Made by a program: the position numbers and the translations under genes
Shown: in pieces, positions 49,991 to 53,875 of the stretch
Layout of the letters: each line of letters starts with the position of its first letter
Numbering within the stretch: position 1 is the first letter of the stretch
Notes under the pieces: model-generated
The model's database searches: none
Seen by the model: the letters and a program-made list of their open reading frames with translations, nothing else
What the model was told of the DNA's origin: nothing
Source of the DNA: Rhodothermus marinus DSM 4252
GTDB lineage: Bacteria; Bacteroidota; Rhodothermia; Rhodothermales; Rhodothermaceae
Assembly: GCF_000024845.1 (NCBI RefSeq)
Contig: NC_013501.1
Location: 2,522,874-2,586,873 of the forward strand
Reading direction: 5' to 3'
DNA: 64,000 nt

Positions 49991-50004
49991 GGCGCCTGAT
50001 AAAA

Positions 50005-50036
50005 AAGCCCGGGTCCGTCGATGCAGACCCGGGCTT
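50005..50036 (-). terminator. Minus-strand terminator after the leader-peptide gene
   Basis: AAGCCCGGGTC (50005-50015) pairs with GACCCGGGCTT (50026-50036). On the minus strand it is followed by a run of six Ts (50001-50006), 24 nt after the stop of the small gene at 50060. On the plus strand it has no T-tail but may still help end the catabolic operon. Confidence 0.85.
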
Positions 50037-50059: not shown

Positions 50060-50200
50060 TCAGGAGAACACAAACCCTCCAGCCGTGTGCTCCTCCAACC
50101 GACCCACCCGCTCCAGACGCGGCGCCTCAAACTCCCGACGAACACGCTCCCGCTGATCCTCCCGAACCTGCTCCCGCTTATTCTCAGCTTCGTATCGCAT
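50060..50200 (-). CDS. 46-residue peptide with lasso-peptide-type leader motif
   Basis: Small gene not normally called: ATG 50200, stop TGA 50060, preceded by a near-perfect Shine-Dalgarno (AAGGAGG, 5 nt before ATG) and followed by its own terminator. Residues 1-23 are highly charged (RYEAENKREQVREDQRERV). Residues 24-39, FEAPRLERVGRLEEHT, fit the lasso-peptide leader pattern Y/F-x2-P-x-L-x3-G-x5-T that binds the RRE domain of the maturation machinery. After T39 only AGGFVFS remains, too short for a known lasso core. No lasso cyclase, RRE or protease gene is in the window. It lies 43 nt downstream of the T9SS-type protein gene on the same strand. Gene reality likely; RiPP role inferred. Confidence 0.75.
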   Translation of the reverse strand: MRYEAENKREQVREDQRERVRREFEAPRLERVGRLEEHTAGGFVFS

Positions 50201-50242
50201 AACGCCCTCCTTCGGTTTGATTTCTTGTTATGCCTCTATAGC

Positions 50243-52030
50243 TCAGCGCAACAACGTCACCAGCCGATGCGCCACCCGACGCGTGCCGTCGCCCTCCAAC
50301 ACCTCCACCCGCATCACATACGTCCCGCTCGGCAATCCCGAACCGGCCAACCACCGCACCGCATGCACCCCCGCCGAAAACTCCCCACCGGCCAACCGCG
50401 CCACCTCTCGACCCAGCACATCGTACACCGCCACCGACACCCGCGAAGCCTCCGGCAACATCAACCGCAACGCCGTCTCCCCTCGGAACGGATTCGGCAA
50501 CGGACCCTCCAGCGCAAAACGCGTCGGCTTCAGCTCAAAGGCCACCGTCGGGTCCAGATTCGCCACCAGCAAGCCGCCCGGCTCCGACGGACACGTCGAA
50601 TACACCTCCGCAAAGTAGGTCCCCGTCGGCACGTTCGGATCCACCTGCTGGAAAACCACCTCCACGGTCGTCGGCGGGCTAAAGCCCGCGTCCAGCACGT
50701 ACGGCCCCATGCCCGTGCCGCTGAACGTCTCGCCGCCGGTGCCCTGCACCGACACCACCGAGAGATTGTTCAGCAAGGTGAAAAGAATCTGTTCGATGCC
50801 GTCGGGCGAGTAGAACGTGGCAATTCCCTGGTTGCCCGACACCCGCTCCGACTGAATCACCGCCGGCGTGCACACCGACGGCTGCATCACCCGGATTTCG
50901 GCCGCGCAGGTGGTGCTGATGAGTCCATCCGACACCGTGAAAACGGCGTTGAAGACACCGGTGGCCGAAGGTGTCCATTCAAACAGGGCCGTCTGCGGCG
51001 CTGCACCGAGCGCCGGGTTCGGCGTCAGGGTAGCGCCGGCCGGCAGATGGACGGCCGAGATCGATACGGTATTGCCGTCGGCATCGCCTGTGGCGTCGTC
51101 GCCCGTGATCAGGATACTGACCGGGTCACCCAGATTCACCGTCAGTGGCGAGGGAGGATCCAGCGTACAGGTTGGTAACTGGTTGCCCTCGCCTTCGATG
51201 CGGAAAATGAAATCCAGCGCCGTCCACGCTTTGGGCGTGCTCTGCTCAGGGTCCACGCCGGGATCGTACTCTTCGATAATCACCTGCACCGCCCACTGCG
51301 AACCGTCCGGGAAGCGCGTTGCATCGGTGTTGTTCCAGGAGATTACGCCGGTTTCCGGATCGATCGACAGCACCGAAAGCGGCAGGCGGTAAATGCCCGA
51401 TTCGGTCGGGGTGGCAAATCGGAAGCGGAGCAGGTCGCCGTCCGGGTTCGTGTACGAGATCGAGTAGGTAGCCGGATTGCCACGGGGAATGCCGACAAAC
51501 GCACCGCCGCTGACCACGGCCGAGGCATTGCTTCCGTCGGCCAGCACGCGGGCCTTGAAGCGAAAAGCGGCATCACTGGCATTGCGCAAAAAGTCGGGCC
51601 GACAGCAACCCCGGATCTGTACGTCATAGGCGCCGGCCGCCGGGTAGCGATGCACGATCACGGCCCGGAGCGCCACCCAGTCGTCCTCGGGCGCGTCGTT
51701 GAAGCCGATCACCTCGAACAGCTCCGTCGGATCGTCCCCATAGAGGGTACCATCCCCGAGATCTACCCATCCTTCCTCGGAGAGCTGCACCCAATCGCCC
51801 ACGTCCGGCTCATTGCCGTCAAGCATGTACAAGTTCGTTCCCAGCGTGGCATAGCGCCAGAATTCAATCACCACGATGCGCACTTCGCCGGCGCTTCCAG
51901 TCGCCTCAGCATAGAGCGTGGCCCCGCGAAGATGCGAGGCCTGCGCTCGGATACCCCAGAGCAAATTGCTCAGAAGAAGCAGCCATCCAATCTGATAAGT
52001 TCGACAGTGAACATTGTAGCGGCACTTCAT
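50243..52030 (-). CDS. Large secreted protein with T9SS-type C-terminal sorting domain
   Basis: 595 residues; ATG 52030 has a strong Shine-Dalgarno (GGAGG, 4-5 nt). Signal peptide up to about residue 31 (ending RAQA, then SHLRGATLY). Several beta-rich, Ig/cadherin-like segments follow (about 35-200, 200-300 with SIDPETGVISWNN, 310-400 with LFEWTPSATGVFNAVFTVSD). The C-terminal domain (about 515-595: PNPFRGETALRLMLPEASRV; VAVYDVLGREVARLAGGEFS; GTYVMRVEV) is the type-A T9SS sorting signal that is removed during export. Paired Cys residues suggest disulfides. Function unknown; adhesin or surface-layer role is possible. 59 nt after the next T9SS-type gene upstream. Confidence 0.87.
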   Translation of the reverse strand: MKCRYNVHCRTYQIGWLLLLSNLLWGIRAQASHLRGATLYAEATGSAGEVRIVVIEFWRYATLGTNLYMLDGNEPDVGDWVQLSEEGWVDLGDGTLYGDDPTELFEVIGFNDAPEDDWVALRAVIVHRYPAAGAYDVQIRGCCRPDFLRNASDAAFRFKARVLADGSNASAVVSGGAFVGIPRGNPATYSISYTNPDGDLLRFRFATPTESGIYRLPLSVLSIDPETGVISWNNTDATRFPDGSQWAVQVIIEEYDPGVDPEQSTPKAWTALDFIFRIEGEGNQLPTCTLDPPSPLTVNLGDPVSILITGDDATGDADGNTVSISAVHLPAGATLTPNPALGAAPQTALFEWTPSATGVFNAVFTVSDGLISTTCAAEIRVMQPSVCTPAVIQSERVSGNQGIATFYSPDGIEQILFTLLNNLSVVSVQGTGGETFSGTGMGPYVLDAGFSPPTTVEVVFQQVDPNVPTGTYFAEVYSTCPSEPGGLLVANLDPTVAFELKPTRFALEGPLPNPFRGETALRLMLPEASRVSVAVYDVLGREVARLAGGEFSAGVHAVRWLAGSGLPSGTYVMRVEVLEGDGTRRVAHRLVTLLR

Positions 52031-52088: not shown

Positions 52089-53777
52089 CTATTTCCGCAC
52101 CATGATTGCATGAATTCTTCGCTTCTCGTTTCCTTCCAGTATCACCCAGTACATTCCCGATCCGGTTGCCGGCGTCCAGACGATTCGATGCAACCCGCCT
52201 GGCAGGATTCCATCCACCAGCCGTGCCACCTCACGGCCCAGCAGGTCATAGACGGCCAGCCGCACGCGGGCCGGTCGGGCAAGCTGCACCGGGATCGTTA
52301 CCGACGCACCAGCCGGGTTGGGATAAGGCGGGAGCAGTTGTACGGTAGCCTCCGGAGCGGTCGGTAGCACGGCCGTTTCGGTCAGCACGCGGGGGCGTCC
52401 GCTGGCCATGTTGACCAGCCCTTCGTAGGTGCGCGTCTGCGTCGAGGTAATCGCCGTCAGCCGGACGTACCAGTAGCTGGAGTCCGGCGACGGCTCCTGA
52501 TCGGTGTAGTAGCCACCGCCCATGAGCTGCACGACCAGGCTGCGCACGGGAGTGTTCGGGTCGAAAATCAGGGCAAACGTGGGATCGGCCTGGATGGAAT
52601 CGGCCAGCGCCTGCACGCCACGGTCGAGCAGCGTGCTCACCGCCTGGTCGCTGTCGATGAACGGCTCGGGCACCGCCGGAATGGTGCCCAGCCCTTCGCC
52701 GCTCAACACCGACGTCGTGGCTCCCAGCGGATCGACGCGCACCTGAATGCGCCGCGACTGCGCGGACGAGTAGAACTCGTAGATCCACGTGTAGGCTCTT
52801 CCGGAGCGGCGGGGACTGTTGGCGGCCACCAGGCCGATCAGGTAGGCATCGGCGGCCCGCGCCTGCGCCGAATCGCGGGCCAGCGCCAGCCGCTCGCGGG
52901 CCGTAGCCAGCGTAAAGGCGTGCATTTCCAGCGTAATGCCGGTAGCGTCGGTGTCGTTCAGCGTGACCGGATCGGGCGCGCCGTCGCCATCGGCATCGTA
53001 GTAGCCCAGCGCTTCGATCTCAAGCTGCGCCAGATTTCGGTAGCGCACGGCGACCGGCCAGTAGGTGCCGGAGCGGACGTACTCGACCTGATAGGTGCCC
53101 GAAGTACCGGAAATGACGGTTGCCGCCGCCACATCCCAGGCGGCCACGGTCTGCGTGAAGCTCTGGAGCAGAAAGACCACCGTGAAATCGCGCTCGTCCT
53201 GCACGGCGGGCGTTTCGGCCTCAAAGACCGGACGGCCCAGTCCCGTGGCTTCGGCCTGCGCCAGCAACGTCCGCAGCGTACGCGCCTGCGCGGTGGACGG
53301 CCACGCCCGCTTGGCCGCCGGCGTTGCGATCGTGCCCGCCACCTGCAGCGACCCGATCGTGGCAGCCGTCGTGTAGCGCAGCACGTACGGCGCCGTCATG
53401 GAGCGATCCTTCGCATTCTGCACGGCAAACACCAGCCAGGTGTAGTCCGTCTCCGCCTCGTGCGTAACGGTATAGACGACCAGATTCGGGCACGTCTGGC
53501 CGGCACCGACCGAAGGGCAATCGGTCCGGTTGGGCGTCTCCGGTATCAGATCCACCCGGCGAATGCGCACGGCCCGCCGGGGCTCAAACAGAAAGGCCGT
53601 GTTGAAGTCGGTCTGCTGCGAAACCGCATCGTTGAAATAGAACCGGACTTCCGCCTCCAGCGGTACCCTGGCCGTTCCCGAAGCCGGCTCGGAGCGCTCC
53701 ACGAAGAAAGGCTGCGCGCGCAGCGTCGGACTGCTACTCAGAGCGAAAAGCGCCAGACAGAACAGATACTTTCGCAT
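52089..53777 (-). CDS. Secreted protein with SbsA-like Ig domain and T9SS-type sorting domain
   Basis: 562 residues from ATG 53777 (MRKYLFCLALFALSSSPTLRAQ signal peptide). An SbsA-type Ig-like N-domain (SEPASGTARVPLEAEVRFYF) about 25-135 is followed by an unclassified middle of about 340 residues with a DADGDGAPDP calcium-loop-like stretch. The C-terminal T9SS sorting domain is about 485-562 (PNPAGASVTIPVQLARPAR; LAVYDLLGREVARLVDG; GMYWVILEG). Same strand and spacing as the following secreted-protein gene, so probably one transcript. Function unknown. Confidence 0.85.
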   Translation of the reverse strand: MRKYLFCLALFALSSSPTLRAQPFFVERSEPASGTARVPLEAEVRFYFNDAVSQQTDFNTAFLFEPRRAVRIRRVDLIPETPNRTDCPSVGAGQTCPNLVVYTVTHEAETDYTWLVFAVQNAKDRSMTAPYVLRYTTAATIGSLQVAGTIATPAAKRAWPSTAQARTLRTLLAQAEATGLGRPVFEAETPAVQDERDFTVVFLLQSFTQTVAAWDVAAATVISGTSGTYQVEYVRSGTYWPVAVRYRNLAQLEIEALGYYDADGDGAPDPVTLNDTDATGITLEMHAFTLATARERLALARDSAQARAADAYLIGLVAANSPRRSGRAYTWIYEFYSSAQSRRIQVRVDPLGATTSVLSGEGLGTIPAVPEPFIDSDQAVSTLLDRGVQALADSIQADPTFALIFDPNTPVRSLVVQLMGGGYYTDQEPSPDSSYWYVRLTAITSTQTRTYEGLVNMASGRPRVLTETAVLPTAPEATVQLLPPYPNPAGASVTIPVQLARPARVRLAVYDLLGREVARLVDGILPGGLHRIVWTPATGSGMYWVILEGNEKRRIHAIMVRK

Positions 53778-53875
53778 GGCGGCAACGCGACCAGGTTTTC
53801 GTTGCCGCAAAGAAAGGAAACCGGCCTCGCAGATACTATGGCGATCTGGCGCAAACTATGCGCGGGTGCCTTTGC

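Follow-up and report, generated by a model that had tools for sequence, protein, structure and literature searches.

The 64,000-nt stretch of the Rhodothermus marinus DSM 4252 genome analyzed here (the window) carries a 46-codon open reading frame on its minus strand, 42 nt downstream from the stop codon of a gene for a protein with a type IX secretion system (T9SS) sorting domain (Table 1). The reading frame, its near-perfect Shine–Dalgarno sequence, the lasso-type leader motif at residues 24–39 and the seven residues that follow Thr39 all stand as a preliminary description of this DNA had given them. That description did not mention the T9SS partner, a second (573-aa) T9SS protein in the window, or the cyclase-free NTase–B2–kinase–RRE set found elsewhere in the genome. 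It also spoke of a dedicated terminator; the hairpin is indeed strong (−28.2 kcal/mol, z = −5.6), but "dedicated" is only partly right because it also sits between convergent genes.

Table 1. Features of the peptide gene and its T9SS neighbors, in window coordinates
Feature	Position	Strand	Basis or remark
Mini-precursor peptide gene, MRYEAENKREQVREDQRERVRREFEAPRLERVGRLEEHTAGGFVFS	50060..50200	-	46 codons + stop; homologues, dN/dS
Shine–Dalgarno AAGGAGG	50206..50212	-	5 nt 5' of peptide ATG
Intrinsic terminator, hairpin + T6	50001..50036	-	between convergent genes
Lasso-type leader motif FEAPRLERVGRLEEHT, residues 24–39	50084..50131	-	presumed RRE-binding segment; Thr at −2 position
Predicted core GGFVFS, residues 41–46, conserved C-terminal Ser	50063..50080	-	alignment; putative cleavage site
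T9SS partner protein, 595 aa, putative Ig domain + T9SS type A sorting domain	50243..52030	-	
Pre-CTD module, ~100 aa, within T9SS partner	50534..50872	-	also in partners of the LTD and beta-helix types at other peptide loci
573-aa T9SS protein	52089..53810	-	full-length homologues directly 3' of peptide gene in G012 (two loci), G027, G074

Six-frame translation of the window contains one match to the strict motif [YF]xxPxLxxxGxxxxxT, where a first-order Markov model predicts 0.1. The NCBIfam model lasso_leader_L3 (NF033521) scores the peptide at 17 bits (E = 0.0045), just below its 19-bit cut-off, and Pfam gave no match to it. Homologues were found in six of seven Rhodothermus genomes (G000–G006, G000 being that of the window), with eight members at two types of locus: the window type (G000 and G005) and a type 3' of a gene for a lamin-tail-domain (LTD) protein (G000, G001, G002, G004, G005 and G006). 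The same searches of Rhodothermus genomes returned no peptide homologue in G003. Positions M1, R21, R22, P27, R28, L29, G33, L35, T39, G41, F43, F45 and S46 are invariant in the eight-member alignment, and position 24 holds either F or Y. For the final 25 codons, dN/dS was 0.06–0.43 where dS was unsaturated, which indicates that these genes are under purifying selection. The preliminary description had named homologues that keep the motif, and a ratio away from 1, as its own checks; both came out in its favor, with the short tail conserved too. A chance ORF is ruled out by the aligned homologues, the dN/dS values and the motif count relative to expectation, and on these comparative grounds the 46-residue ORF is confirmed as a real, overlooked gene.

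The core had been called vestigial. Few parts of the alignment are as well conserved as the tail, GxFxFS-stop, whose terminal Ser is invariant; this tail is therefore not vestigial. PMC10368454 places Thr second to last in the leaders of lasso precursors; if cut one residue past Thr on that basis, the peptides would yield the cores GGFVFS, GSFNFS, GGFRFS, GVFSFS, GVFVFS and GSFDFS. Rhodothermus cores are thus about six residues long and have no Asp or Glu at ring positions 7–9. A minor match in the window's own genome (C1:3030130) was discarded as frame noise, having neither motif nor tail, and a scan of genome contigs with A2 gave matches confined to Rhodothermus; in A1, conservation was too low in every stretch for such a scan.

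In every Rhodothermus case the gene 5' of the peptide encodes a T9SS-type C-terminal domain; five partners tested against TIGR04183 scored 20.4–27.6 bits (cut-off 23). With 55 matches to TIGR04183 across the genome (E ≤ 0.05), a T9SS neighbor is not expected by chance. Within the genus, the peptide lies 3' of every LTD- or window-type partner gene that has downstream sequence present. One further partner copy in G005 (contig C227) runs into the contig end, and neither T9SS partner was found in G003. The idea that every T9SS gene carries such a peptide was rejected, as no further member lies downstream of 53 other T9SS matches. Partners with quite different N-termini have in common a pre-CTD module before the sorting domain; it is 35%–45% identical among the window, LTD and G012A types and weaker in others, and no Pfam model reaches its cut-off on the window's copy.

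Profile and context searches extended the family beyond the genus, within a single order. In G012, G074, G092, G026 and G027, a peptide gene lies 25–330 nt 3' of a gene with a T9SS-type C-terminus, on the same strand. The peptides end in TAGTFTFGVAAAS and TGDVTFTFGTAPMS at the two G012 loci, in TRWVSMGVS and TTAERMFTFGIPSS at the two G074 loci, in TAGQYQWS in G092 (where the T9SS tail of the neighbor was read by eye) and in AGSINLWDKK at the T9SS-linked G027 locus. G026 has two loci, whose longer cores are GPGLGTEDAVIFAPGGDPTDDPS and GPGMTGTQDAVIFQMGGDPSDDPS. The weakest of these matches had E near 0.02, in one genome, and are credible because of the common genomic context. Overall, 10 of 11 locus types are T9SS-linked, with the peptide on the same strand and just downstream (six genera, five families). 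C-terminal Ser is present in nine of those 10, on differing tails in the four other genera represented by G012, G026, G074 and G092; these are counts of locus types found by homology to this peptide family in one order, not independent random samples. The leader had been described as an orphan, which holds as to enzymes but not as to neighbors: a T9SS cargo gene is a fixed one, in Rhodothermus and four other families. In G027, in G074 and at each of the two G012 loci, the peptide gene is directly followed by one for a full-length homologue of the window's 573-aa T9SS protein, and the three window genes therefore recur together elsewhere, in another gene order.

Three individual loci deserve mention. 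The eleventh locus type is a second G027 peptide (ending in RLQIHTGSMNDYDRLGMPPVRVR; contig C23, L235 5218–5388), which has no T9SS or enzyme neighbor. The two G026 peptides (L232 7056–7247 and L233 8046–8225), both T9SS-linked, carry Glu/Asp at core positions 7–9, which could allow a lasso ring to close; the flanks examined yielded no cyclase. In G092 (L231 377–1695), the peptide gene is followed by a Sua5-like gene, one that also borders the stand-alone B2 set of Rhodothermus.

The RRE and B2 genes of the genome all lie outside the window, as the claim that the window holds no maturation genes implied. The genome has two RRE matches (RRE_S and RRE_R) and one B2 match, and its cyclase lies in a rhodolasso cluster. 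RRE_S (C1:1839207–1839479) belongs to a set ∼730 kb from the peptide (C1:1839207–1842077) that also encodes an HprK-like kinase, the B2 (NF033537) and an NTP_transf_5 protein (NTase); neither a cyclase nor a motif-bearing precursor was found in the 19 kb examined there. Catalytic motifs are kept in its kinase (LHA with the His, GKS, DD) and B2 (FCMK, GHAW, DPR). The rhodolasso cluster (C1:1098449–1104636) encodes an HprK-like kinase, the cyclase (NF033535), three precursors (two matching the rhodolasso model NF033534), an ABC transporter and RRE_R. It has no B2, the genome's only one being ∼740 kb away in the cyclase-free set, and the same split recurs in all seven Rhodothermus genomes. These results bear out three parts of the earlier proposal: the small gene is real and has a lasso-type leader, its core is very short, and the genome encodes candidate enzymes at other sites.

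The cyclase-free set is intact in five Rhodothermus genomes. G003, the one genome that lacks both the peptide and the T9SS partners, retains only its RRE and B2; the kinase is missing, the NTase is in pieces (L124 8691–9592, next to B2), and the rhodolasso cluster is present. G001 also has RRE and B2 only, with no stand-alone kinase or NTase, and yet carries one divergent peptide; the kinase of its rhodolasso cluster is the only one found. The only physical linkage of peptide and enzymes that we saw is in G027, whose 10.5-kb contig with the peptide unit also encodes a B2 and an RRE with 42% identity to RRE_S; no cyclase or kinase match was found on that contig, and the G027 peptides do not end in Ser.

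The leader fits the lasso-precursor pattern [YFW]xxPx[LIVAF]...G.....T in both motif and spacing, and it is conserved. The rest of a lasso system is lacking at the locus: there is no lariat-length core with Asp/Glu at 7–9 (only the G026 homologues carry such residues) and no cyclase, B1 or B2 beside the precursor, the RRE and B2 being far from the window and the cyclase in the rhodolasso cluster. NF033521 describes a similar leader signature and is silent on core and context. Rhodolasso precursors (NF033534) have the same leader spacing, in the same genome, and an RRE and HprK-like kinase in their cluster, but they have a WxxP leader and a core of 20 or more residues that does not end in Ser, and they are clustered with a cyclase. 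Paeninodin-like lasso systems (PadeK/ThcoK/SyanK, PsmK/PsmN; PMC9266682) resemble ours in the [YFW]xxPxL...T leader, RRE, B2, NTP-transferase, an HprK-like kinase and, as its known or presumed target, a C-terminal Ser, whereas here the set has no cyclase, the core no ring acceptor, and the precursor lies outside the cluster. In lasso precursors, the C-terminal Ser is a target of phosphorylation by PadeK-type kinases, and PsmN can add a hexose to it (PMC9266682); a C-terminal Ser is invariant in the eight Rhodothermus members.

Another parallel is with the linear polyphosphorylated peptides (LPP), RiPPs of Bacillota that have an RRE, an HprK-like kinase and an NTP-transferase without a cyclase (PMC13381572). 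The cyclase-free set of Rhodothermus, which we link to the peptide only provisionally, likewise has a discrete RRE, and in both cases the leader is of the aromatic-xxP kind and a lasso system occurs in the same genome. LPP systems differ in using an SpI-type leader peptidase, where the set here has B2, and an MsbA-like exporter. Their precursor lies in the cluster and its long core is phosphorylated at S3; here the precursor is unlinked, and its core of about six residues has a C-terminal Ser. The T9SS partner is new relative to LPP. Which RRE is used in LPP depends on whether the leader carries W or Y (PMC13381572). Two RRE types are kept in all seven Rhodothermus genomes, as are two leader types in the genus, WxxP in rhodolasso cluster precursors and F/YxxP in the mini-precursor family. 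At the pocket positions N33 and D70 of LppB, RRE_S has Asn and Gln and RRE_R has Asp at N33; the leader of the window's peptide carries Phe, offering no hydroxyl to D70.

We lean, with little more than even confidence, toward the peptide being a leader-guided, linear, cyclase-independent RiPP-like precursor that forms a unit with its T9SS cargo partner, is cut in trans by RRE/B2 and works with that partner. The PqqD-type RRE would capture the F/Y-xxPxL leader, the HPr-kinase-like enzyme and NTP-transferase would modify the C-terminal Ser (a phosphate, then possibly a sugar or nucleotide), and the RRE would hand the leader to the B2 cysteine peptidase for a cut one residue past Thr39, releasing approximately GGFVFS. 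The candidate enzymes would be those of the cyclase-free set. No macrolactam ring is expected from a core that lacks Asp/Glu at positions 7–9. What was observed directly is the conservation of gene, leader and tail, the pairing with T9SS genes and the presence of the enzyme set in the genome. RRE binding, cleavage, Ser modification and a surface role with the partner we infer from sequence; the C-terminal Ser is probably modified. The precursor model draws on the conserved motif, tail and Ser, purifying selection, the cyclase-free set with its kept catalytic motifs, the G027 linkage, the literature parallels, the terminal Ser at nine of the 10 T9SS-linked locus types, and the joint absence from G003 of peptide, T9SS partners and kinase, with a broken NTase. 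Against it count the G001 peptide without a stand-alone kinase or NTase, Rhodothermus enzymes unlinked from the peptide genes, the mixed RRE pocket residues (Asn at LppB N33, Gln at D70), and the absence of an export route for the product from the model. Conservation of B2 is not specific evidence because the rhodolasso cluster, which has no B2, also needs the only one.

On another reading, the rhodolasso cluster takes the peptide as an additional substrate, to be cyclised or exported there. One paralogue lies 2.3 kb from the cluster's RRE in G000 and G002, promiscuity can occur among lasso RREs from outside Bacillota (PMC13381572), no kinase but the cluster's was found in G001, and the cores of the G026 homologues are longer, with Glu/Asp at ring positions. 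We nevertheless consider this unlikely: the Rhodothermus cores are about six residues long and lack Asp/Glu at 7–9, the cluster's own precursors are WxxP and the mini-precursor family F/YxxP, G003 has the cluster without the peptide, and the peptides of G001, G004, G005 and G006 are not near it.

A conserved leader motif, a very short core and unlinked enzymes would also fit a leader that stays unprocessed and serves as a decoy or regulator, sitting in the RRE and so adjusting lasso maturation to the expression of T9SS cargo; this would leave unexplained both the conserved tail with its C-terminal Ser and the recurrence of that Ser on differing tails in G012, G026, G074 and G092, and we hold it to be quite improbable. 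More doubtful again is a small T9SS accessory, a chaperone or beta-strand donor for the partner, with only an incidental likeness to RiPP leaders. The constant T9SS neighbor with its common pre-CTD module and the tails of alternating hydrophobics (FVF, FTF, YQW) speak for such a role, and the motif spacing, which including the Thr fits lasso leaders, and the RRE and B2 on the peptide's contig in G027 speak against it; we know of no T9SS helper of this kind.

Returning to the precursor reading, the recurrent position after T9SS cargo genes points to modified peptides of a new, secretion-coupled kind. A tentative extension, which we think on balance unlikely, is a T9SS-coupled RiPP of Rhodothermales, in which a B2-trimmed peptide, phosphorylated or glycosylated at Ser, may work with or be joined to the upstream-encoded T9SS surface protein. 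Machinery of the RRE/B2/kinase type is known from secondary-metabolite clusters, and such coupling would link its lasso-type form to surface-protein display. Rhodothermus mini-precursors are tied to surface-protein secretion genes rather than to enzymes, with the T9SS tie seen in five families of one order. If the precursor reading is right, leader-guided peptide modification would become a component of T9SS biology, the cyclase-free RRE–B2–kinase–NTase set would gain a testable substrate, and genome miners should seek precursors away from clusters. In the open full-text literature (most subscription papers lie outside this scope), we found no paper that links T9SS to RiPPs and none of relevance to Rhodothermus lasso peptides.

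Finally, homologues of the 573-aa T9SS protein are 28%–47% identical, with the G074 copy reading as two ORFs. An AlphaFold model built from a five-row alignment was poor (pLDDT 58), and Foldseek gave low TM-scores, many of them to Ig-like or beta-rich proteins, and a match to the T9SS CTD of 8gl6. YWP, DPD and other residues are invariant across the family.
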